This document shows, piece by piece, positions 44,495-54,624 of a DNA stretch of 64,000 nt (its first letter is position 1; every line of letters begins with the position of its first letter). The translations under genes and the position numbers were made by a program. The notes below the pieces were generated by a model. It did no database searches, was not told the origin of the DNA, and saw only the letters and a program-made list of their open reading frames with translations. The stretch is from positions 62,001-126,000 of the forward strand of contig JANGFR010000003.1 in NCBI GenBank assembly GCA_024707015.1, read 5' to 3'. The DNA is from Candidatus Culexarchaeum yellowstonense. Its GTDB lineage: Archaea > Thermoproteota > Methanomethylicia > Culexarchaeales > Culexarchaeaceae.

Positions 44495-44594
44495 GAAATG
44501 TCACCATAGATATTATATCCAAAATGGATTTAAGCATTACAATTGAGCAAAATTTAAGTTATAGATTCAATAGAAGAGGGGTTTATGTGGAAAT

Positions 44595-44705
44595 ATGGGT
44601 GCGTGGATTGAAGAGATGTATAGACTGTATCCATGGCCTGAAGACCCTTCAAGGGATGAAGGTAAGAGGAGGTATTATGAAGCATTAAATAAGTCTAAGA
44701 TATAG
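44595..44705 (+). pseudogene. 5' fragment of a methyltransferase gene split by integration
   Basis: ATG 44595 opens a 36-codon frame (GAWIEEMYRLYPWPEDPSRD, then KRRYYEALNKSKI) ending at TAG 44703-44705. YPWPEDPSRD and RRYYEAL are typical of the N-terminus of a SAM methyltransferase. The missing part, including the SAM motif, is found 9.2 kb away at 53.88 kb. The two join naturally at LNKSKI/LDKFKV. The integrated element begins within this segment. Confidence 0.7.
44685..44701 (+). repeat. Left junction repeat (attL candidate)
   Basis: TTAAATAAGTCTAAGAT here matches TTAGATAAGTTTAAGGT at 53881-53897 in 14 of 17 positions, in the same orientation. Both lie at the break point of the split methyltransferase gene and encode equivalent residues (LNKSKI and LDKFKV). 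Confidence 0.6.
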
Positions 44706-44725
44706 TTAACTTTTTATTTAACCAC

Positions 44726-44756
44726 TTCCCATTTTTATTTGTTCACCTATAGGGAG
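44726..44756. promoter_or_regulatory. CCCAT/CCTATAGGGAG motif ahead of the integrase
   Basis: TTCCCAT at 44726 and CCTATAGGGAG at 44746-44756 lie directly before the integrase GTG. Similar pairs occur at 53797-53820 (TTCCCAT, CCTATATGGGAG) and, in weaker form, at 47491-47511. In the excised circle the 53.8-kb copy would fall about 130 bp upstream of the integrase. An element-specific operator is possible. Confidence 0.35.
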
Positions 44757-44757
44757 T

Positions 44758-45918
44758 GTGAAGTTAAAGGTGGGGTGCCTCCAATATTTAAGTCAATTTG
44801 AAAGCAAGAATACCATCTACACGTATATGGCGGCAATAAGGAAGTTCCTTGAAACAGTATATGGTGTGAAGGTTAAAAGGCGTGAAGAGCTTGAATTGCA
44901 TGCTACACGATACCTGCAGGAGAGGGCTGGGAATCTTCAGAAAATTATGGAGGATGTTCAAGGCTTCACTGCAGCCATAAAGGATATGCCTCCAAAAACC
45001 CGTAAAACCTACCTGGCAGCCATAAAAACCTTCCTATTGGAGAATAATGTTGAGTTACCTCAGCTCTTCTGGAGGAGGCTGCGTGGAAGGGTGAAGGGAA
45101 GCCACCCTGTAAGCGAGGAAGCCGTTCCAAGCAAAACTGTCCTGCGCAGTGTAATGATGCATCTCCCCACAGTGGGCAAAGCATTATTCCTAACCCTACT
45201 CTCCAGTGGAATGAGGATTGGCGAAGCCCTCCAAATCAAGATCGCTGATTTAGAATTGGAGCATGATCCACCCATGATTCACATACGTGCGGAATATACG
45301 AAGACGGGTGAAAAACGAATATGCTTCATAACCCCTGAAGCCGCTGAAGCCATACGTGAATGGCTAAAGATCCATGACCAATGGATAAAGGCGGCAGCAA
45401 GGAAAAGCCACCTATACAGGAAGAATATTGATGACCAAAGGCTTTTCCCAATGCGCGGAGCCAACGCCCGCGTAATATGGAGGAGGGCGCTCCATAAGAC
45501 TGGGAATGGGAAGGTGGATCCGCGGACCAGGCGCCTACTCATACATCCACACGTACTAAGAAAATACTTCCGAAGCATAGTGGGAAGCATTGCAAGCGTG
45601 GATGTGGCTGAAGCACTAATGGGCCACCACAGCTACCTAACCGAAGTCTACAGGAAATATCCGGACCCAGAACGCTACCTAGGCGAAGCCTACAAAAAGG
45701 CAATACCTGAACTCCAAATCTTCACACAGCCACATCCAAGCGAGGAAAAAATCAAGCAGGTTGAGGAGAGAAACCGCCTCCTAGAAAACCTAAACATGCA
45801 ACTTCAAGCTCGAGTCATTCAACTGGAGAATGAGTATAGAGACTTCAAGCAGCAGACTTTAAGGGAGATTGAGGAGCTTAAGAAACTGGTCCAGCAGCTA
45901 ATGCAACCACAACATTAA
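44758..45918 (+). CDS. Tyrosine recombinase (integrase)
   Basis: A 386-residue site-specific recombinase. The N-terminal SAM-like core-binding domain includes YLSQFESKNTIYTYMAAIRK. The catalytic domain shows the first Arg in LLSSGMRIGEALQI near residue 160, HPHVLRKYFRS with the H-x-x-R pair, and MGHHSYLTEVYRKYP with the second His and the nucleophilic Tyr. A C-terminal coiled coil follows (IKQVEERNRLLENLNMQLQA). It sits at the left end of the element and should catalyse integration and excision. The GTG start is 1 base after GGGAG, which is tight. Confidence 0.9.
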   Translation: MKLKVGCLQYLSQFESKNTIYTYMAAIRKFLETVYGVKVKRREELELHATRYLQERAGNLQKIMEDVQGFTAAIKDMPPKTRKTYLAAIKTFLLENNVELPQLFWRRLRGRVKGSHPVSEEAVPSKTVLRSVMMHLPTVGKALFLTLLSSGMRIGEALQIKIADLELEHDPPMIHIRAEYTKTGEKRICFITPEAAEAIREWLKIHDQWIKAAARKSHLYRKNIDDQRLFPMRGANARVIWRRALHKTGNGKVDPRTRRLLIHPHVLRKYFRSIVGSIASVDVAEALMGHHSYLTEVYRKYPDPERYLGEAYKKAIPELQIFTQPHPSEEKIKQVEERNRLLENLNMQLQARVIQLENEYRDFKQQTLREIEELKKLVQQLMQPQH

Positions 45919-46058
45919 CACTCCTTTTTTCACTCACCATCAAGTGATGATGAACCTCACACACCCCTCTATCCCCCTAGAGTGGGGACAACGGGGGCAT
46001 CGGGGACAACCATGAGAAAACATGCTCCCAGAAAAAGACCAGCAACTGCTAGACAATT

Positions 46059-47414
46059 TCAGAGAGTAGAGTATGGTTGACGATCCTTTATGGCTTCAAG
46101 TATTTCCTCGTAGAAGGCTGGATCCCTCCCCCTGGGATGGTACTCGTAGAGGTCGCGGAGAGTCCAAGGCTCAGCATAATCTATCTTTACATTTAAAGGC
46201 GCCTTCCCCTTCGAAACATATTCACATGCCTTCAGAAGTCTCTGCTCAACCTCACTTGAGAAGAGATAGGTGCGGTGATCTAGGAACCCATTCTTCAAAG
46301 CATTAAACCATCTTTCAAATATTGGAAGAAAACTCTTTTTCCCAAGAAATTCAACTTCCGAGAAACCCCACATGTAGACTATCATAATTTTACTGCTTTC
46401 AGGAAGTTTAAGTAGAATGTTTAAGCCATCCTTGAAGGCTGAAAGCATTTTCAAAGCATTTTCCAAATTGCCTTTTACAGTCAAAACCCATTCGGGTTTT
46501 TCCTTCAAGATAAACCTGAAGAAGGCATTCCACACCTCCCCATAGTTTTCGAAAAAGATAGTTTCGTTTTCTTTAAGCAATTCAGCCCTCTTAAGCCCTT
46601 GCAGAATCATGCCGTGGAAGTTGAGGAAACTGTTGAAGAGTGTTGCACAGCTCCCAAGACTTCCCTCCATCAATTCCTCAAACTCCATGCCGAGCCTCCT
46701 CACCTCATCCTCCTTCTCCCCGAGAAATTCAAGGAGCTCCTTTAAACTTGCCTTCAGGGAAAGCTCTCTTACAATGCCAATTATTTTTAAAGCATTTTCT
46801 TCAGCCTGCAAGCGTTTGAGAAACTCTTCATTCCCAGTTTCCTCATATAGCTTCGAATATTTCTCCCTATTCTTCTTGTTCAACTCCTCATTAGAAATGA
46901 GTGCCTCATTTAAGAGGGGGGATGAAAATTCTGCTTGCACCCCCGCCCAATAAGCCCATAATAATAGTTTCTCAACTTTCTCCTGTTTCTTAGGGGGATA
47001 TTTCTTTAATTCCCTCCACATTCTATAAGCAATCATTTCGCTGGGGTCATCGAAAACATCAATTTCAGCAGATCCAAAAACGAGGAATGGAGCTGAATCC
47101 TCATATAGCCCCGCGAATATTGGTTGCCCCATCATTTGATCGGAGCATTTTTTAATGGTTTCCACAGCTTGTTTATTGAAGAATTGCTGGGTCAATCGAT
47201 ACTTAATTTTTCCATTTTCAATTATCTTTTCAATTGTGCCTTGCAAAATCAAATTTTTTAAGTTTGAATCTATAACGAAATTCCCAACTTCACGATTTAA
47301 AATTTTACTTAGATTTAATTTAATTTCGGAGAAAGTCAAAGGCAGTTGTGCTTCCTTTAAAACTTGAATTATATACTTATCCATCACGCGTTTTTTAGGC
47401 AAATCCATCCCCAA
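46059..47414 (-). CDS. Element-encoded protein with N-terminal winged helix
   Basis: A 451-residue protein of unknown family, the only leftward gene of the element. Residues about 12-75 look like a winged helix (YIIQVLKEAQLPLTFSEIKL, then SNLKNLILQGTIEKI with a wing ending YRLTQQF). The rest is helical, with a long coiled-coil-like part near 165-250 (NEELNKKNREKYSKLYEETG, ELLEFLGEKEDEVRRLGMEF). A transcriptional or maintenance regulator is possible. It is divergent from the operon that starts at 47516. Confidence 0.55.
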   Translation of the reverse strand: MGMDLPKKRVMDKYIIQVLKEAQLPLTFSEIKLNLSKILNREVGNFVIDSNLKNLILQGTIEKIIENGKIKYRLTQQFFNKQAVETIKKCSDQMMGQPIFAGLYEDSAPFLVFGSAEIDVFDDPSEMIAYRMWRELKKYPPKKQEKVEKLLLWAYWAGVQAEFSSPLLNEALISNEELNKKNREKYSKLYEETGNEEFLKRLQAEENALKIIGIVRELSLKASLKELLEFLGEKEDEVRRLGMEFEELMEGSLGSCATLFNSFLNFHGMILQGLKRAELLKENETIFFENYGEVWNAFFRFILKEKPEWVLTVKGNLENALKMLSAFKDGLNILLKLPESSKIMIVYMWGFSEVEFLGKKSFLPIFERWFNALKNGFLDHRTYLFSSEVEQRLLKACEYVSKGKAPLNVKIDYAEPWTLRDLYEYHPRGRDPAFYEEILEAIKDRQPYSTL

Positions 47415-47490
47415 AATAAGGGATTAAATTCAATTATTTAAATCTATCTATAAAATAACTAAGTTATAGGAAGAAATAAATATTATTACA

Positions 47491-47511
47491 ATCCCCTCCC
47501 TCTAATGGGGA
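47491..47511. promoter_or_regulatory. CCCC...GGGG inverted motif before the element operon
   Basis: TCCCC at 47492-47496 and TGGGGA at 47506-47511 form an inverted repeat just before the first small gene of the rightward operon. It resembles the motifs at 44726-44756 and 53797-53820 and overlaps the ribosome-binding region. Confidence 0.3.
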
Positions 47512-47515
47512 AGCT

Positions 47516-47662
47516 ATGAGCAAGCAACAAACAACAAAAAAAGAATTGATCGTGATGGAAAAAGAAGAGTTTGAAGCATTCTTCGAATTAGTTCAGGCAG
47601 CAGTGAAACTCCTTAGGAGATATGATGAGCTTAATCGCGAATTAAAAGCTTCTTTGAGGTGA
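47516..47662 (+). CDS. 48-residue helical protein of the element
   Basis: A short frame from ATG 47516 with GGGGAAG 5 bases upstream. The product is helical and charged (MEKEEFEAFFELVQAAVKLL, then RRYDELNRELKASLR). It ends in the GAGGTGA that serves as the ribosome-binding site of the next gene, which supports translation of both. The family is not recognised. Confidence 0.5.
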   Translation: MSKQQTTKKELIVMEKEEFEAFFELVQAAVKLLRRYDELNRELKASLR

Positions 47663-47667
47663 AATTT

Positions 47668-47964
47668 ATGGTTAAACTCGACTTTATGCGAATAAAAGTT
47701 ATAAAAGAGAAATATGTTAAAGTCGACATCAATCTATGGCTAAATAATTATAATCTCACGGGAGAACAGCAAGAAGCAATAGAGCAATTAATTGTTGATT
47801 ATATTGCTAGCAACTTGGCATATCCCCATATATATCGACAAACTTTTATTCTTAGCCCCGATTACATAAGCTTTCTTTGCTTGAAAAAAGATTTACCGCA
47901 ACTTTTGGAGAAATTGCAAAACATTCTTCCCTCCGAGGTGGCAACCTGTGAAGCCAGAGTATAA
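47668..47964 (+). CDS. 98-residue hypothetical protein of the element
   Basis: A small alpha/beta protein starting at ATG 47668, 5 bases after GAGGTGA. It reads VKLDFMRIKVIKEKYVKVD, NYNLTGEQQEAIEQLIVDYI and FLCLKKDLPQLLEKLQNILP. The family is not recognised. The next gene starts inside its 3' end. Confidence 0.5.
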   Translation: MVKLDFMRIKVIKEKYVKVDINLWLNNYNLTGEQQEAIEQLIVDYIASNLAYPHIYRQTFILSPDYISFLCLKKDLPQLLEKLQNILPSEVATCEARV

Positions 47965-48121
47965 TACATTGCCAGGCTGCTTTGCATTGTTTCCAAGGGC
48001 CATGCCGCCGAACAAGTGTGAAACCTGCCCATACATTGAACACTGCAGGAAATGCCTCAGGAAAGAGGCCCTAAAAACAATCCTAATAAAAATCGAGGAA
48101 ATCGAGCGGAAGCTGAGGTGA
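47948..48121 (+). CDS. 57-residue Cys-rich protein of the element
   Basis: A GTG-initiated frame with GAGGTG 7 bases upstream that overlaps the previous gene by 17 bases. Cysteines cluster as CETCPYIEHCRKC, suggesting a small zinc-binding unit, followed by a charged helix (LIKIEEIERKLR). Its 3' end contains GAGGTGA used by the PrimPol gene, so it is well placed in the operon. It could be a replication accessory protein. Confidence 0.5.
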   Translation: MKPEYNTLPGCFALFPRAMPPNKCETCPYIEHCRKCLRKEALKTILIKIEEIERKLR

Positions 48122-48124
48122 AAA

Positions 48125-49777
48125 ATGATGAGCCTCAGAGACATTGAATTTTTTGGATTGAGATTGTATAACGCTGGGTTCAACGTCATCCCAGTGAGTG
48201 AAGAGAAGAGGCCATTCACATCTTGGAATAGTGAGAAGAGGATGGAAGAAGAGGAGTTTAAAAAGCTATTGAGTAAAGCTACGGGAATAGGTATAGCTGC
48301 AGGTCCTATACATCCATTTGGAGATAAATACGATCTATTGATCGTGGATATTGATAAGCCCAGCATTCTGAGGAGAACCCCATATTTTGAGCATAAGCTG
48401 AGCCAAACAGTCCTATGGATGACCGGTCCACGCTGCCCAAAATGTGAAGCAAAAAAGATTGATAAAGAAATCGAGGTCCTGGAACTTGGGAAGAGGTTTC
48501 TATGTAAGAAATGCAGCTTGGAGTTCATATTGGATGATGCTAAGAGGGGGTTGGCAGCATTATTCATAATCGATAAAGACTCCTTAAAAGAGGGGATGAG
48601 TAGAGGGGGAGTAGAGGTAAAGAGGCGGAACTATCAGCTAATCCCCCCAAGCATTCACCCAAGTGGAGTATACTACAGTTGGATTAACCCAATAGATTTC
48701 ACAAAGAAAAACTTTGGAGTAGCATACTTGGATCCCCAAGATCTAAGGGTAATATTAAGTGAATGCATGGAAGCTGAGCTAAACCCAGAGGTTGAAGTTA
48801 AGGAGGACCTGGAGCTGAAAGTGAAGGCTGAAGAGAAGCCTAAAACCCCAGCAGCTGCTGGTATTGAGGAAAAAAGGGTTCAAGTCCCCCAAACTGCGAA
48901 TGCATTTCCAAAGAAATGCCCATACTGCCTAAAATACCATTCGATAAAATGTCCTGCTGAAAATGAGGAAAGTATAAGGACGGGGGTTTTCTTTCAGGGT
49001 GAGGATTCGGAGCCCGTGAGGGAAGATTGTTTTGAGCCTGATTTGGGGAGGATGAGGCCATTCCCTACTTCTCCTGCAACGGATATAAATGAAACCTTTA
49101 GTTACATGGGTGATAGGCCGTTTAAGGGGCGTGTGCAGGTTGGCGCTTTAACCACCCCCTCAAGCCGTTTCACCACGATTGTCTTTCAATGTAGGGTGGA
49201 AGACTGCAGGATTGGGGATTGCCCCCTAGCTGGAGGTTTAACTTTAAGTGTTAATGGGGAGGGTGGATTTGATCCCTCAGCCTTCGCCACATACTTCGAC
49301 ACAAACAACCCCATGGATGCATTATACGTTTACGCGGAGAAGTACAGTTTCAATAGGTGCTCCGAGTGGAGGAGGAAGATTGCATATACTGGGAGCGATG
49401 AGAGGGCGGTTACAGGCGCCATAATTTATGATTTAACGGGGAGGGAGGGGAGGGCTTGGTTCATACATGGGGAAAAATGCGATCTGCGGCGGGCGCCCAA
49501 CTGGATTATTGCTGAGGGATGGCTTTGCAGAGGCTATAAAGGCCGCATAGGCGTACTAATTCAAGCATTTAAGGGGGAATCTGAAGTTATTGCCCCTCCA
49601 CCTGAGGAGGTTGAGAAGGCTAGGGCTATCCTTAAAAAACTTGTAGTTGATGGGGGGTTGGAGGGATCCGCCGTATGGAGGTTGGCTGAGCTTTTAAGGA
49701 GAAAGGTTAATGCCAAGGGAGGTGAGGAAGGGGTTTGCAGCCGACCTACTATTAGTCGCCGGCCCAGTATGGGTTAA
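48125..49777 (+). CDS. PrimPol (AEP primase-polymerase) with zinc insertion and OB-like MCM N-terminal region
   Basis: A 550-residue replication protein. Residues 10-200 are an AEP prim-pol domain: NAGFNVIPVSEEKRPFTSW, the metal-binding LLIVDIDKPS (Asp75, Asp77) and IPPSIHPSGVYYSW with the nucleotide-binding His178. A zinc ribbon with Cys104, 107, 127 and 130 is inserted inside this domain. After a polar linker, residues about 330-500 look like the OB/zinc region of MCM proteins (RVQVGALTTPSSRF, FQCRVEDCRIGDCP, WIIAEGWLCRGYKGRIGVLI). The frame ends in the overlap with the next gene, which supplies the MCM-like AAA+ part. GAGGTGA precedes the start; ATG 48128 gives better spacing. Confidence 0.8.
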   Translation: MMSLRDIEFFGLRLYNAGFNVIPVSEEKRPFTSWNSEKRMEEEEFKKLLSKATGIGIAAGPIHPFGDKYDLLIVDIDKPSILRRTPYFEHKLSQTVLWMTGPRCPKCEAKKIDKEIEVLELGKRFLCKKCSLEFILDDAKRGLAALFIIDKDSLKEGMSRGGVEVKRRNYQLIPPSIHPSGVYYSWINPIDFTKKNFGVAYLDPQDLRVILSECMEAELNPEVEVKEDLELKVKAEEKPKTPAAAGIEEKRVQVPQTANAFPKKCPYCLKYHSIKCPAENEESIRTGVFFQGEDSEPVREDCFEPDLGRMRPFPTSPATDINETFSYMGDRPFKGRVQVGALTTPSSRFTTIVFQCRVEDCRIGDCPLAGGLTLSVNGEGGFDPSAFATYFDTNNPMDALYVYAEKYSFNRCSEWRRKIAYTGSDERAVTGAIIYDLTGREGRAWFIHGEKCDLRRAPNWIIAEGWLCRGYKGRIGVLIQAFKGESEVIAPPPEEVEKARAILKKLVVDGGLEGSAVWRLAELLRRKVNAKGGEEGVCSRPTISRRPSMG

Positions 49778-51062
49778 AACCCCAGAGAATGCTGATAGGG
49801 AGCTTGGGCCAACAATTTGTGAGCTTGGTCCAAGCACAAACTATAAGTCTCAGAGGGGGAGGTTCCTGGTGGAGTGGATTGGAGCTGGGAAGTATCTGCG
49901 AGGAAGAAAAACGGAGGCGGGGTTAACTGCGGGATTGGAGAAGATTGAGGGGTTAGGCTGGGTGGCGAAGAAGGGTGCCCTACCATCAGCGGACCTATGC
50001 TTCATAGTCGTGGATAACGCTCCTCCCCACGCATTGGATGAGCAAATTGAGTCGAGGAGGGATGGCATTGTAAGTGTGGCTGGAATTAAGAGCATGGAGC
50101 TATGGGCTAGGACACGCCTCAAGCTTCTTAACAATCCTCTCCAGCCACTTGAGGAACTCGTCTACAAATGCGTCGCATTGAAAATGTTTGACAGCAAACT
50201 AATCGCCCGCATGACATTCGCCATATACACCTATGGAATTAGCGTTGATGAACGCTACGATCCCACAATATCCTCCTTAACTGCAGAGGAGGAAGCAATA
50301 CTTGAAGCTGCGAGGACGATCATACGGTGGAATCTCAGTCAAGAGGTAACCTACACAGTTCCACTCAGCCTATGGCCAAAAATAATGGAGTATAGTAAGC
50401 AGCTTGAACTGAAATATGGATGTGAAGACATACCCCTACTTTTACGCAACATCCCATATAAGCTTGCAGTATTAGCCTACAGCTTCGCAATCCTCGAAGG
50501 GGAAACAGAGCCCTCTGAGAGACATTATAGGCTTGCATATGAGTGGCTTGACTACTGTGCAAAAGACATAGAGCTGGACAAGTATGCAGAGGTCCAGAGG
50601 ACGCTGCGAAACCTCAGCGACGAGGAATATGAAAAAATCCGCAAGGCAATAGAGGAGGAGATTGAGAGAGACATCAATGCATATGGTGGAGAACGTGAAG
50701 ACAGCCACATATACAGGTTCCTCGAATACCTCGTGAAACATGGAACAACACGCTGCGATGAATTGGCAGCATACCTAGAAGTTGATGAGAAGACAGTTAA
50801 ACGGAAAGCACAACTCCTCAAAGGGCTTGGATTACTGCGCAGTGGAAAAGATGGATATACCTATACACCGAAGGGAGTGAGATTCATTAAGAGATGGATA
50901 ACCCCTGTCCCCGATGTCCCCGATGCCACCACTTTTAAGGGGCAGAGGCAACCTGGAGAAGATCTGAAAATATATCTCACCCAAAAAAGTGGGGACAATG
51001 AGGACATAGAGGACAAAGAGAAAAACAACAATAACCCCAAACAGGAAGAGGTGAACAAATAA
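49710..51062 (+). CDS. Divergent MCM-like AAA+ helicase with C-terminal winged helix
   Basis: A 450-residue protein aligned by eye to the MCM AAA+ module. EVRKGFAADLLLVAGP matches the MCM GHEEVKKALLLQLFGG segment. Walker A is GPSTNYKSQ (Lys-Ser kept). AEAGLTA-like EAGLTAGLEKIEGLGW and KKGALPSAD match the MCM hairpin. Walker B is CFIVVDNAP, with Asp kept but Glu replaced by Asn. Sensor 1 is LLNNP, and the finger region is FDSKLIARMTF. A C-terminal winged helix (RFLEYLVKHGTTRCDELAAY, DEKTVKRKAQLL) ends the domain. It overlaps the PrimPol frame by 68 bases; AAGGAG lies 11 bases before ATG 49710. Confidence 0.72.
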   Translation: MPREVRKGFAADLLLVAGPVWVKTPENADRELGPTICELGPSTNYKSQRGRFLVEWIGAGKYLRGRKTEAGLTAGLEKIEGLGWVAKKGALPSADLCFIVVDNAPPHALDEQIESRRDGIVSVAGIKSMELWARTRLKLLNNPLQPLEELVYKCVALKMFDSKLIARMTFAIYTYGISVDERYDPTISSLTAEEEAILEAARTIIRWNLSQEVTYTVPLSLWPKIMEYSKQLELKYGCEDIPLLLRNIPYKLAVLAYSFAILEGETEPSERHYRLAYEWLDYCAKDIELDKYAEVQRTLRNLSDEEYEKIRKAIEEEIERDINAYGGEREDSHIYRFLEYLVKHGTTRCDELAAYLEVDEKTVKRKAQLLKGLGLLRSGKDGYTYTPKGVRFIKRWITPVPDVPDATTFKGQRQPGEDLKIYLTQKSGDNEDIEDKEKNNNNPKQEEVNK

Positions 51063-51283
51063 TGGGCCTCTTGAAATGGCTCCTGGAGAAAATAGTGGTT
51101 TACGGCATGGTTATAACATTCTTCTACTTTATCGGTGAAGGGTTGGGGATTGTGCCGAAGCCTTTAAAGGACCTGGCCACCTGGGTTCAAACAAACTTCC
51201 CCTATATCGTTTTCCTGATTTGCGTGATCGTGGTCTGCTACACGATCATCAGGATTTCAAATAATAGAGTGAAGGGAGAGTAA
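51062..51283 (+). CDS. 73-residue two-TM protein of the element
   Basis: Starts at ATG 51062 on the last base of the previous stop, with GAGGTGA 7 bases upstream. It has two hydrophobic segments (ENIVVYGMVITFFYFIG-like region near 10-30, and YIVFLICVIVVCYTIIRI near 48-66) and a short charged tail. It may be a virion membrane or partition protein. No family is recognised. Confidence 0.55.
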   Translation: MGLLKWLLEKIVVYGMVITFFYFIGEGLGIVPKPLKDLATWVQTNFPYIVFLICVIVVCYTIIRISNNRVKGE

Positions 51284-51286
51284 ATT

Positions 51287-51409
51287 ATGGATTTGGATAC
51301 GATCATTGGATTGTTGATCGTGATAGCCATAATATTGGTTATTGCGATCTCATTAACGAGACATGGGGAAGAAGAATATCCGAAGGGGAGGAGATGGGAA
51401 TATGGGTGA
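51287..51409 (+). CDS. 40-residue single-TM protein of the element
   Basis: ATG 51287 follows GGGAGAG by about 6 bases. The product is one membrane helix (TIIGLLIVIAIILVIAISL) with a charged tail (RHGEEEYPKGRRWEYG). Its stop overlaps the start of the next gene (ATGGGTGA), the usual layout of this operon. Confidence 0.5.
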   Translation: MDLDTIIGLLIVIAIILVIAISLTRHGEEEYPKGRRWEYG

Positions 51410-51599
51410 CCATGAAATATTCTATATTCTCTCAGCATTGCTGGGGCAGTTGACTGGCTACGCATTATTCCATTTGAGGAGTTATTGGTTTGCATTTACG
51501 ATCTTCCTATTCTGGCTTTTACTCATTTATCTTGAGCTTGAGGATGAGAAGGAAGGGGTGAAGATTGAGGATGAAGCTTCTTTTTCCCGTGTGTTTTGA
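51402..51599 (+). CDS. 65-residue two-TM protein of the element
   Basis: ATG 51402 is chosen because GGAGGAG lies about 10 bases upstream and the start overlaps the previous stop. It has two hydrophobic stretches (FYILSALLGQLTGYALFHL, WFAFTIFLFWLLLIYLEL) and an acidic tail. This is the third small membrane protein in a row. Its function is unknown. Confidence 0.5.
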   Translation: MGDHEIFYILSALLGQLTGYALFHLRSYWFAFTIFLFWLLLIYLELEDEKEGVKIEDEASFSRVF

Positions 51600-51616
51600 T
51601 GGGGGGTGAAATGGTT

Positions 51617-52309
51617 ATGGATGGGGAAGATGTGAAGGATGAGGAGGGGATGGATGCTGAGGGGGTGGAGGATGAAGAGTTAAAGGAAACTATTCTTGCA
51701 GCTTTACGTGCTCCGCGCCGCGGCGACTTGGAGGAAATTTTGGCTTCCAATTTGGCTGCCGCCGTATTCGCCCAGCCACTGGAGAAGATTCGCATGATAT
51801 TTGAAGCCTTCCTTCTATTGCCTGAGGAGGAGCAGATCTTGATCGTTGATGATGAGGGGGAGATTGAGAGGATTAGGCAGCTCTATGAGGTTGCCATCTC
51901 CCTCAGCAATACAATAGTGGAGGGGCATACTGGGACAGTTCCATGGAGCTTCAGCATTTCCTCAGCCGATAGATACCTATGCCACTTCATAAACCGCATA
52001 TGGCAGTTTTGGAACACTGAGGAGTGGCACCTCTTCTTCGATGAGGTGAGGAAAGCGGACCTGAATAGTGAGGAGGGGAGGAGGATTTGGAATGCATATT
52101 TAAGGGAGCTGGCTCGATTCCTATGCAGCGGCTTCGCCCCCCTCAGCCTAATAAATCAAGTTCAAAGCGAATATATCGTGAAGGTTATGCCCTATGCAAG
52201 CCATATTCTCCGCGAAATATTCAAACGCTACATAACCAAGGAGACTTGGGAAACCATGCTTTCCATTGTTGGTGGGAGGGGGAGGGTTAAGGCTGGTGGG
52301 CAGCCTTGA
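51617..52309 (+). CDS. Hypothetical acidic protein of the element
   Basis: About 230 residues. ATG 51617 is favoured because GGGTGA lies 7 bases upstream; ATG 51611, ATG 51599 and TTG 51596 are alternatives. The N-terminus is strongly acidic (DGEDVKDEEGMDAEGVEDEE), then helical (EEILASNLAAAVFAQPLEKI, RLYEVAISLSNTIVEG-like region). No family is recognised. Its TGA overlaps the start of the ATPase gene. Confidence 0.55.
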   Translation: MDGEDVKDEEGMDAEGVEDEELKETILAALRAPRRGDLEEILASNLAAAVFAQPLEKIRMIFEAFLLLPEEEQILIVDDEGEIERIRQLYEVAISLSNTIVEGHTGTVPWSFSISSADRYLCHFINRIWQFWNTEEWHLFFDEVRKADLNSEEGRRIWNAYLRELARFLCSGFAPLSLINQVQSEYIVKVMPYASHILREIFKRYITKETWETMLSIVGGRGRVKAGGQP

Positions 52310-53418
52310 AGATTGCCTGGCTCATAGGCAGTGAAGCAATAAAGTGGAATAGGCCACTTGTATGGCTTACCTTGGGGGTGCGTGGAGCAGGGAAAAGCAG
52401 CTTCCTAGAATACCTTGCCGAGCAGCATTTGGAGCATGGAAACTGCGTACTAGATCTATTTGCCTGCAGGGCAGGAGAAAATCTGGCTTGGCTGAGGAGT
52501 AAATGGGTGAAGGAGAAAAATATTCTGCTACTAACAGATGAAAACGCCATTGTAGAGGTCCCCAACGGCATTACAGTTAAACCTTACAGTAAACTCTCAC
52601 TTTCAGACTTCAATGAGTACGATATAATCATAAACAGCAGCCCCCTCTACAGGAATCTCGACGCAGAGTATGAGGCCTGCAACCACATAATCGATATGCT
52701 TTGGCATAGGCTGCATTGGACTCGCATAATATTCACAATTTGCCGTGAAGCCTCAAGCCTAATATATAGCAGGCTGAAGGTGGTGGAGAGTCAGCAGGCT
52801 GCGAAAGCCTTCCTCATATATTGGCTGCGGGAGTCGCGTCACGTGGGATGCAGCCTAGGCCTCGACAGCGTACGACTCACCAGCCTAGACATAGATGTAC
52901 GCAGCCTCGCAGACTTCATAGTATTCAAAGCCCAGGGAGCTGGAGGGTTGCCCCGTGAATTATGGTATATCTATCGCTACCTGCAGCCAAGCTTCATTCA
53001 AAACATGAAGCCAAACGAATTTGTCATCCTCTCAAGAAAAGGACATTTAGGCTTAGGCGTATTCCCATATCCCACCTGGCATAAGGAGGAGGGGGAAGAC
53101 ATACTTTCAAAACTAAACATAAAAGTCACTTTCGAAGAGAAACCTGAGGAGGGAGTTTATAGGGGGAAATATAAGACGATTGGGGATGCTGAACATGCGG
53201 AAATAATTGAAATGTACGTTGAGCAGGGATATAGCATGGCTGAAATTGCGGAGAAGATAGGCCGCAGCACCCAAACAATATTCAGCCACATAAACAGGCA
53301 TACACGTGACGTGCAGCGACTTGGCTACTGCCCCCGATGTAGACGTGCAGGATCGAAGCTTCAATCCACACCAGCCAAACCCACAGTTCAAGCAGCCGAA
53401 AACTATGAGGAACTATGA
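52306..53418 (+). CDS. P-loop ATPase with C-terminal HTH, packaging or partition candidate
   Basis: A 370-residue protein starting at TTG 52306, overlapping the previous stop. Walker A is VWLTLGVRGAGKSSFLEYLA near residue 25. The following strands (YDIIINSSP, IIFTICREASS) and AQGAGGLPRELWYIYRYL fit the FtsK/HerA-like or Zot-like ATPases that package DNA in archaeal viruses. A Hin-type HTH follows near residue 300 (MYVEQGYSMAEIAEKIGRST), and then CPRCRRAG. ATPase plus DNA-binding HTH suits DNA translocation or partition; the choice between them is inference. Confidence 0.6.
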   Translation: MKIAWLIGSEAIKWNRPLVWLTLGVRGAGKSSFLEYLAEQHLEHGNCVLDLFACRAGENLAWLRSKWVKEKNILLLTDENAIVEVPNGITVKPYSKLSLSDFNEYDIIINSSPLYRNLDAEYEACNHIIDMLWHRLHWTRIIFTICREASSLIYSRLKVVESQQAAKAFLIYWLRESRHVGCSLGLDSVRLTSLDIDVRSLADFIVFKAQGAGGLPRELWYIYRYLQPSFIQNMKPNEFVILSRKGHLGLGVFPYPTWHKEEGEDILSKLNIKVTFEEKPEEGVYRGKYKTIGDAEHAEIIEMYVEQGYSMAEIAEKIGRSTQTIFSHINRHTRDVQRLGYCPRCRRAGSKLQSTPAKPTVQAAENYEEL

Positions 53419-53477
53419 GATCATCACCTCCAAGCATTTTTAACATTTAAAACCTAGATCTACAAATCAAAAACAAA

Positions 53478-53720
53478 TTGGCTAGTGGACCTAGCCCCCA
53501 GGAATTGCCTCCTGAAAATGTCCAGCAGTTGCTAGACGTTTTCAAGTCATCAAGTTCAAGTTATCAAGCTTATCAAGTTTATCAAGGTGAAAGTAAGAAG
53601 GGGCATGAAAAATTCAATGTAGCAATGGCTCTAAAAAAGTGGAGCAGAGGCTCAAGTAAAAATGTAGGGGGGATTGATTATCTAATCAATTATAATCAAT
53701 TGATTACAGTTGATTTGTAA
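53478..53720 (+). CDS. Uncertain 80-residue frame at the right end of the element
   Basis: A TTG-initiated frame of low complexity (QELPPENVQQLLDVFKSSSS, then SYQAYQVYQG). Its 3' end lies over a cluster of palindromes. The segment LPPENVQQLLDVF is near-identical to LPEKDQQLLDNF encoded at 46025-46066, with mostly synonymous codon changes, which hints that part of it is or was coding. It may be a remnant. Confidence 0.3.
   Translation: MASGPSPQELPPENVQQLLDVFKSSSSSYQAYQVYQGESKKGHEKFNVAMALKKWSRGSSKNVGGIDYLINYNQLITVDL
53561..53587 (+). repeat. Three tandem 9-bp repeats
   Basis: TTATCAAGC, TTATCAAGT and TTATCAAGG follow each other at 53561, 53570 and 53579. A further ATCAAG lies at 53549. They may be iteron-like or simply encode the YQ repeats of an uncertain frame. 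Confidence 0.5.
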
Positions 53721-53728
53721 ATCAACTG
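53673..53728. repeat. Cluster of three palindromes at the element's right end
   Basis: Three inverted repeats lie side by side and share the core TTGATT/AATCAA. The first is ATTGATTA at 53673 with TAATCAAT at 53683. The second is the perfect palindrome TAATCAATTGATTA at 53693-53706. The third has arms CAGTTGATTT and AAATCAACTG at 53707-53728. With the 9-bp repeats just upstream this is the most structured non-coding sequence in the window. An origin, an operator or a recombination site would fit. Confidence 0.7.
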
Positions 53729-53796
53729 AATGGAGATGAAACTGTGAAAGCGGCTAGCTCCACTCTACGCAACATTTGTTTGTTTGATTTCTACGT

Positions 53797-53820
53797 TTCC
53801 CATCTCCCCCTATATGGGAG
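53797..53820. promoter_or_regulatory. CCCAT...ATGGG motif at the element's right end
   Basis: TTCCCAT at 53797-53803 and CCTATATGGGAG at 53809-53820 repeat the motif ahead of the integrase. No element gene follows it here, but in the excised circle it would lie in the integrase promoter region. Confidence 0.35.
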
Positions 53821-53853
53821 TATTGGTTTTGGTGGATGGATTTTTAACCAATT

Positions 53854-54624
53854 TTGGTTTTTGGAAAAGTTGACTGTTTCTTAGATAAGTTTAAGGTTGC
53901 TGTGAAGCATGAATGGATGAACAAATTGATCAACTCAAAAAAGCATTTAAAGATCATAGAGTTATGTAGCGGCACAGGTATTGGTGGAATAGCATTATCA
54001 AAAATTTTAATTGAAAACGGTAAGAGTGTGGAATTAAAGATGCTGGATGCACGTAGAGAAGCTTTAGAGAAGGCTTTAGATTTCAGCTTAAAGGAGCTTG
54101 GATTCAAAGCTCAAATTCAAGTGGCAGACATATTAAAACCAGACTACTTAGAGGGGAAGTATGATATTGCATTAATGTATGGATTCTCATCATCCCATTT
54201 CAATCCATGGGAAATGATAAAAATACTTTCATCAATCCAAGAAATAATAGTTGAAGATGGAATACTATTAATGGAAGAAAGGGATAGAATTCAAGGGGTA
54301 TTCCTAAGAGGATATCAACAGATCCTACCAGAATACTCTGAAAACAAAACCGTCTTAACAATCCACAAAGATTACAATGCATTGAAGGGGGAATTCTATA
54401 GAATAATATTTGATCTGAAGAGCGGTGAGAGAAGTGAAATGAAAGTTTACTTTTGGGGCTTAGCTGAACTAATGAGCATGGTGTGGATCTTCTTCAAAGA
54501 CGTTGACTTCATACCATATCAATATGGAAATTATAGGGGGATAATAATAGCATACAAACCAAGAGGGAAACTTACACACCTCGACTTCTCAGAAACGCCA
54601 AAGTTCTATGTAAAAAGAGCATAA
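53854..54624 (+). pseudogene. 3' part of the split methyltransferase gene
   Basis: A frame of 256 residues from TTG 53854. The first ten codons come from the element; the host-derived part begins near LDKFKVAVKHEWMNKL. The SAM motif I is IIELCSGTGIGGIALS near residue 34, and motif IV-like DIALMYGFSSSHF follows. The normal N-terminus (YPWPEDPSRD) is left behind at 44.6 kb. The SAM-binding core is intact, so a shortened enzyme could still be made from the element-provided TTG. Whether it is active is unknown. Confidence 0.68.
53881..53897 (+). repeat. Right junction repeat (attR candidate)
   Basis: TTAGATAAGTTTAAGGT is the partner of the left junction repeat at 44685-44701, in the same orientation. 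It lies inside the right-hand part of the split methyltransferase gene. Confidence 0.6.

Follow-up and report, generated by a model that had tools for sequence, protein, structure and literature searches.

A half-site and direct-repeat array at the right end of a small archaeal PrimPol integrative element: a candidate cis-acting site

What is the function of a dense cluster of direct repeats and palindromes that lies behind the last gene of a small mobile element? The window, i.e., the whole 64-kb stretch of DNA analyzed here, carries an element of ~9 kb that belongs to an uncharacterized family of small integrative PrimPol elements in archaea, probably Thermoproteota. An earlier note placed a cluster of three 9-bp repeats and three palindromes built on TTGATT/AATCAA, one with 10-bp arms, at the right end of this element, and proposed that it is a replication origin or a partition site. 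All of these repeats and palindromes are present in the sequence. Here, we delimit the element, describe the cluster and its conservation, and weigh its possible functions.

Ends, targets, and gene content of the element

The bounds of the element (~44695-53885) were set by comparison with a second copy, found on the 9311-bp contig C57 of a genome of the same genus (G001). Homology to this contig starts at 44695 and stops at 53885, which bears out the earlier placement of the cluster at the right end. The two ends carry inverted arms, CTAAGATATAGTTAACTTTT and AAAAGTTGACTGTTTCTTAG, and the 6-bp overlap differs by copy, being ATAAGT in the window and AATGGA in G001. The joined ends of the circular form would read GTTTCTTAG-N6-CTAAGATATAG; this junction was not found in the assemblies, from which only the attR of G001 was recovered.

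The two copies occupy different targets. In G001, the insertion point is the 3' end of a 281-codon gene, which by eye we take to be an archaeal D-aminoacyl-tRNA deacylase. The empty site is intact on contig C6 of the same genome and is also found in G000 and G002; the coexistence of an occupied (C57) and an empty (C6) site in G001 suggests a mixed population. The corresponding site is empty in the case of the window copy, which sits in another gene: a methyltransferase-like gene (44590-44700 and 53886-54624) appears split by the element, and the frame preceding attL (...YYEALNK) and the frame following attR (FKVAVKHEWMNKL...) read as one protein. A tRNA gene was considered as the integration site and rejected, as none lies within the 64-kb window.

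The features of the element are collected in Table 1. The best PDB matches of the MCM-like protein, to MCM6, are weak (E 0.045) and cover residues 13-143; its GLTAG.../...ARTRLKLLNNP motifs are, on our reading by eye, presumably those of an MCM. The 451-aa protein has no Pfam match, and two small probable membrane protein genes lie between the MCM-like and 237-aa genes. The ATPase has a classical P-loop (GVRGAGKSS) rather than a deviant Walker A motif, and its single-sequence structure model reached a pLDDT of 38, too low to be of use. The two element copies are mosaic, with 64-78% identity in parts of the 451-aa gene and the start of PrimPol (47100-48850) and mostly 92-99% elsewhere, and the G001 copy lacks ~350 bp (51045-51396), including one of the small membrane protein genes.

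Table 1. Coordinates of features of the element in the window.
Feature	Position	Strand	Basis or remark
attL: element arm CTAAGATATAGTTAACTTTT, preceded by the 6-bp overlap ATAAGT (44689-44694)	44695..44714	none	Homology start; inverted relative to 53865-53885
Tyrosine integrase, 386 aa	44758..45918	+	PF00589, E 1.1e-14; phrog_1 integrase
9-bp repeat array, GGGGACANN x3, between the integrase and the convergent 451-aa gene	45984..46010	+	TRF; extra copies in G001
451-aa protein	46059..47414	-	Homologue in G029 element (27% identity); wHTH-like N-terminus by eye
PrimPol	48125..49777	+	PF09250, E 1.1e-9
MCM-like protein, C-terminal winged helix; inverted 9-bp arrays in gene	49710..51062	+	Weak MCM6 PDB matches; weak wHTH matches
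Inverted 9-bp arrays: TGTCCCCGA (50906-50925) and GGGGACA-type (50993-51020)	50906..51020	none	Same layout, other sequences, in G067 and G270
237-aa protein, paired with the ATPase in relatives	51596..52309	+	Homologues in G029, G067, G296, and L108
P-loop ATPase, C-terminal HTH; last gene before the right end	52306..53418	+	PF13936, E 4.3e-7; seven-member alignment, conserved GKS and HTH
Left flanking half-site TACAAATCAAA	53461..53471 (half-site at 53465)	none	Inverted relative to 53783-53793
Imperfect hairpin, 15-bp arms, TGAAAATGTCCAGCA/TGCTAGACGTTTTCA	53513..53544	none	Diverged copy at 46031-46062
9-bp direct repeats, three exact TTATCAAGN (53561-53587) and degenerate units upstream	53538..53587	+	~6 units, 53538-53586, by TRF
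52-bp AT-rich palindrome, six TTGATT/AATCAA half-sites, spacing 10, 10, 6, 10, 10	53674..53725	none	Arms kept in G001
Palindrome P3, CAGTTGATTT-GT-AAATCAACTG, perfect 10-bp arms	53707..53728	none	Read from the sequence
Right flanking half-site TTTGATTTCTA	53783..53793 (half-site at 53784)	none	Inverted relative to 53461-53471
attR: element arm AAAAGTTGACTGTTTCTTAGA, overlap ATAAGT (53886-53891), host DNA beyond	53865..53891	none	Homology end and inverted arm

Relatives of the ATPase were found in G029 (62%), G067, G296, G270, and G300, as well as in one IMG/VR contig, L108. None was found in phages, and none in viral contigs with a narrow alignment; L108 was recovered only with the seven-member ATPase alignment. 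The pair formed by the 237-aa protein and the ATPase is encoded at 7354-9011 of L108 (IMGVR_UViG_3300028581_000007). As this contig is classed among the viruses, the family itself may be viral or may have a module in common with viruses. Two Paenibacillus matches are limited to the HTH part of the ATPase and are not relatives of the element.

Architecture and conservation of the right-end cluster

The 467-468 bp that follow the ATPase gene appear to be the largest non-coding stretch of the element (468 bp) and join the integrase leader in the circle. That no confident gene explains the repeats, as first proposed, holds: two indels, one of 1 bp in a run of C (53495) and one of 2 bp (53637/53638), shift the open reading frame at 53478 in G001. 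This frame has no family match and no homologue among 40 genomes of the class except G001, in which the alternative is a 54-aa frame without homologues. A collagen-like YQG protein repeat was also rejected for the TTATCAAG array, the frame being broken between the window and G001; the IMG/VR copies of the array are GYQ repeats in long open frames, tail-fiber-like by eye and unrelated.

The 9-bp direct repeat TTATCAAGN occurs three times in succession (53561-53569, 53570-53578, and 53579-53587). As an exact 8-of-9 triple, it is the sole case in the 64-kb window, and none of 100 whole-window shuffles has one. About 90 bp away, palindromes P1 (TTGATTA-TC-TAATCAA, 53674-53689), P2 (TAATCAA/TTGATTA, 53693-53706), and P3 are best viewed as a single array of half-sites, located at 53674(+), 53684(-), 53694(-), 53700(+), 53710(+), and 53720(-). 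The resulting 52-bp palindrome is centered on 53699/53700, with 21 of 26 pairs matched (81% symmetric), and has ten G+C among its 52 bases (19% GC). It is the strongest of its length in the 64 kb, the runner-up having 18 pairs, and 21 paired positions were reached in none of 2000 region shuffles and none of 100 window shuffles. The core ATCAA is common to the TTATCAAGN iterons and the palindromic half-sites. Twelve ATCAA/TTGAT cores fall in 53419-53886 (within ~320 bp), versus a mean of 2.3 and a maximum of nine in 2000 shuffles, making this the densest such stretch of the window. The flanking half-sites (53465 and 53784), the hairpin at 53513-53544, and the attachment site had all been missed by the earlier note. 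Exact matches to the half-site pattern were found in 20 stretches of IMG/VR, many chance matches being expected for 18 fixed bases. The hairpin at 53513-53544 and the segment 46031-46062 are diverged copies of one 32-bp hairpin-like block, one on each side of the element, and both can be read as (M)PPE..QQLLDVF (G001).

The cluster is well kept in the second copy. Between the window and G001, the 467 bp of 53419-53885 differ by six substitutions and two indels. The TTATCAAGN repeats are identical, and every half-site arm of the palindromes is retained, with three changes in total: two of them turn the P1 spacer from TC to GA, its reverse complement, i.e., the change that a hairpin strand switch would give, and the third (G to A at 53672) lengthens a palindrome arm. 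The divergence of the right end (6/466) is lower than that of third positions in the ATPase gene (24/371; p = 1e-4) or the integrase gene (29/387), which suggests constraint on the region. Set against the final 570 bp of the neighboring ATPase gene (6/190), the difference is not significant (p = 0.12), so recent exchange could also explain the low divergence.

Beyond G001, conservation fades. Of 398 phylum genomes searched for the iteron pattern with at most two mismatches, two have it, G000 and G001, and the other 396 lack it; no relative diverged by more than a few percent carries the array. The palindromes, whose absence from close relatives was to count against a function, are retained in the close copy, whereas no strong palindrome lies downstream of the ATPase stop in G029, G296, G270, and G300. 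The cluster is common only to the element and one very close relative, and it is unlikely to be the main origin of the element. Taken together, it is very probably a real cis-acting array bound by protein; the binding itself, the identity of the protein, and any role in replication are inferred.

Candidate functions of the cluster

The reading of the cluster as a replication-origin-type site is favored by its non-random array, the position of the iterons beside a 19%-GC palindrome, and the three regular 9-bp direct repeats. Iteron origins of the SaPI, SCCmec, or plasmid type are characterized by at least three regularly spaced direct repeats and an adjacent AT-rich region, both present here, and by adjacency to the initiator gene, instead of which the cluster is flanked by the ATPase gene and attR. 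An initiator would bind both the iterons and the palindromic half-sites, which are spaced by one turn of the helix; the AT-rich palindrome would open or be extruded so that the helicase and PrimPol could load. On the other hand, the rep gene is 2.4 kb off (the MCM-like gene ends at 51062), with four genes between, and TTATCAAGN differs in sequence from the arrays in the MCM-like gene. The suggestion of an origin stays plausible on account of the three direct repeats, the inverted repeats, and the AT-rich block, which match the putative SCCmec origin (see below). Against it, the region does not adjoin the rep gene, and the MCM-like gene holds a better candidate. The proposed GC-skew check is mildly against an origin at the cluster: the cumulative skew is lowest at ~47.4-47.7 kb and highest at the right end, the reverse of the pattern expected, in a signal confounded by gene direction.

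The main origin appears better placed at the inverted 9-bp arrays within the MCM-like gene (50906-51020). Similar arrangements recur in the rep genes of two relatives, loci L071 (G067) and L073 (G270). In G067, inverted AATTACTCA arrays lie inside the PrimPol-helicase gene and match as reverse complements at 38 of 40 bases, yet encode different peptides, ITQITQITQIT and LSNLSNLSNLSN, which argues for a function at the DNA level; a weaker inverted pair (22/36) is found in the 908-aa rep gene of G270. These arrays resemble the cluster in their 9-bp period, their ~2-4 copies, and their element-specific sequence, but they form inverted pairs within the gene, whereas in the window the array of the cluster occurs once and lies beyond the rep gene. 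G001 has another TTATCAAG array, in inverted orientation, flanked by two GGGGACA arrays between the integrase and 451-aa genes, and GGGGACA arrays are also found at the end of the MCM-like gene; the two array types thus keep company. Because of this inverted copy, the 9-bp period, and the triple copies, the TTATCAAG array is probably of the same class as the rep-gene arrays, with another specificity. With the main origin better placed in the MCM-like gene, we tentatively propose, as the likeliest reading, that the cluster is an accessory origin-type site, or one inherited from another replicon, at somewhat less than an even chance.

A different function is suggested by the attachment site. The cluster lies 158 bp inside attR and, in the circular form, ~220 bp upstream of the integrase start. 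It could control integration, excision, or expression of the integrase, with a regulator or the integrase binding the ATCAA array, and the TTATAA within the array could be a promoter whose transcripts cross attP in the excised form alone. Palindromic half-sites in helical phase are typical of operators, and in G067 the ATPase gene is directly followed by a perfect palindrome (17-bp arms, 6-bp spacer; L071 1764-1803), and then by the integrase gene. However, a TATA-like sequence of the integrase gene itself can be seen by eye within attL (44705-44720), the integrase has no match to an arm-binding domain, no excisionase-like gene was recognized, and the 300 bp between the repeats and the core are a long distance for arm sites. 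Of the repeats that arm-type sites would call for on both sides of the core, the left end has none, but G001 has a second array 1.4 kb inside. We regard this control function as rather unlikely. The palindrome itself is not supported as the crossover, which the two copies, at different sites, map to 53886-53891. The likeness to the attP of tyrosine integrases is that the inverted arms adjoin the integrase in the circle; the difference is that the crossover falls beyond the palindromes.

The element could also have two origin-type systems that differ in their 9-bp iteron sequences. One would be the inverted pair within the MCM-like gene; the other, the ATCAA system next to attP, adjoins the integrase only after excision and would tie replication, or expression of the integrase, to the circular state. 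This reading has a slim chance of being correct. An array that turned out to be active in the circular form alone would exemplify control coupled to excision in archaea.

The adjoining gene raises another candidate, the C-terminal HTH of the ATPase, for which the cluster would be a binding site that tethers or loads the ATPase for packaging, transfer, or segregation. The ATPase with its HTH adjoins the region in all members checked, and site and HTH both diverge among members. The best palindrome of the whole locus falls within 300 bp of the ATPase stop in the window (+280), G067 (+154), and L108 (+153); the position recurs, the sequence differs, and the jobs may differ. In G067, the palindrome may be the attP of that element (its genome gave no convincing attB, only a 17-bp match with E 1.25), and in L108 an 11-bp-arm palindrome spans the TATA-like sequence of the next gene. 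Moreover, four of the seven elements lack such a palindrome, and the ATPase is not of the ParA type, leaving this assignment unlikely. As for the partition site proposed earlier, the HTH is real, but a ParABS-type site is unsupported: there is no deviant Walker A motif, and no ParA or ParB match among the element proteins scanned.

The cluster might instead be a functionless relic: what is left, after decay, of the 3' end of a replication gene since lost, with in-frame 9-bp repeats (YQAYQVYQ) that used to be iterons. An open frame in G001 encodes ...VFKSSSSSYQAYQVYQGESKKGHEKFYVAMALKKSGAEAQVKM and ends just before the palindromes, the window copy being frameshifted; a diverged copy of the start of this frame lies at 46031-46062, and 9-bp arrays do sit in rep-gene coding sequence in G067 and G270. 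Against decay, all palindrome arms are kept, with changes confined to a spacer and an arm extension, which is unexpected for a relic, and the 52-bp palindrome is outside the frame in G001. We consider a relic improbable. A structured RNA or a terminator behind the ATPase operon is very improbable indeed: although 53470-53830 folds better than shuffles, it does so on both strands (z -2.8 and -2.9), which is what palindromic DNA gives, and has no Rfam match. The only other copy is near-identical.

For now, the cluster can be regarded as regulatory DNA of a plausible but ordinary kind. The defined ends, target, and candidate cis-acting sites make replication and integration of the element testable, with 50906-51020 and 53538-53728 as two short competing origin candidates.

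Comparison with known origins

Two characterized systems offer the closest parallels. In SCCmec, the Cch2 helicase binds three direct repeats beside inverted repeats, which are themselves dispensable, in a region between the helicase and recombinase genes (PMC7581432). Like the element described here, SCCmec combines a primase-polymerase (CCPol), a separate replicative helicase with a C-terminal DNA-binding domain, and a recombinase, and its putative origin is intergenic and lies toward the recombinase, with three short direct repeats as well as inverted repeats. The SCCmec site, however, is immediately downstream of the helicase gene, and its binding was demonstrated, whereas the candidate site described here follows the ATPase gene, 2.4 kb from the helicase-like gene. 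The second parallel, Sulfolobus pRN1, is an archaeal PrimPol element with palindromic non-coding DNA downstream of the operon, and requires a stem-loop downstream of its PrimPol gene. This structure of ~100 nt is located 54 bp past the rep gene and has a 21-nt stem with a 58-nt loop at 75 C (PMC4234260). No pRN-type ~100-nt stem-loop was found at the cluster, where the DNA folds into short, separate hairpins (-12.3 kcal/mol over 81 nt). The pRN1 site has a long loop and no iterons, while the cluster has short adjoining palindromes and follows a gene other than rep. At best, the cluster may work like the SCCmec Cch2 site, and it is a proven member of neither type.
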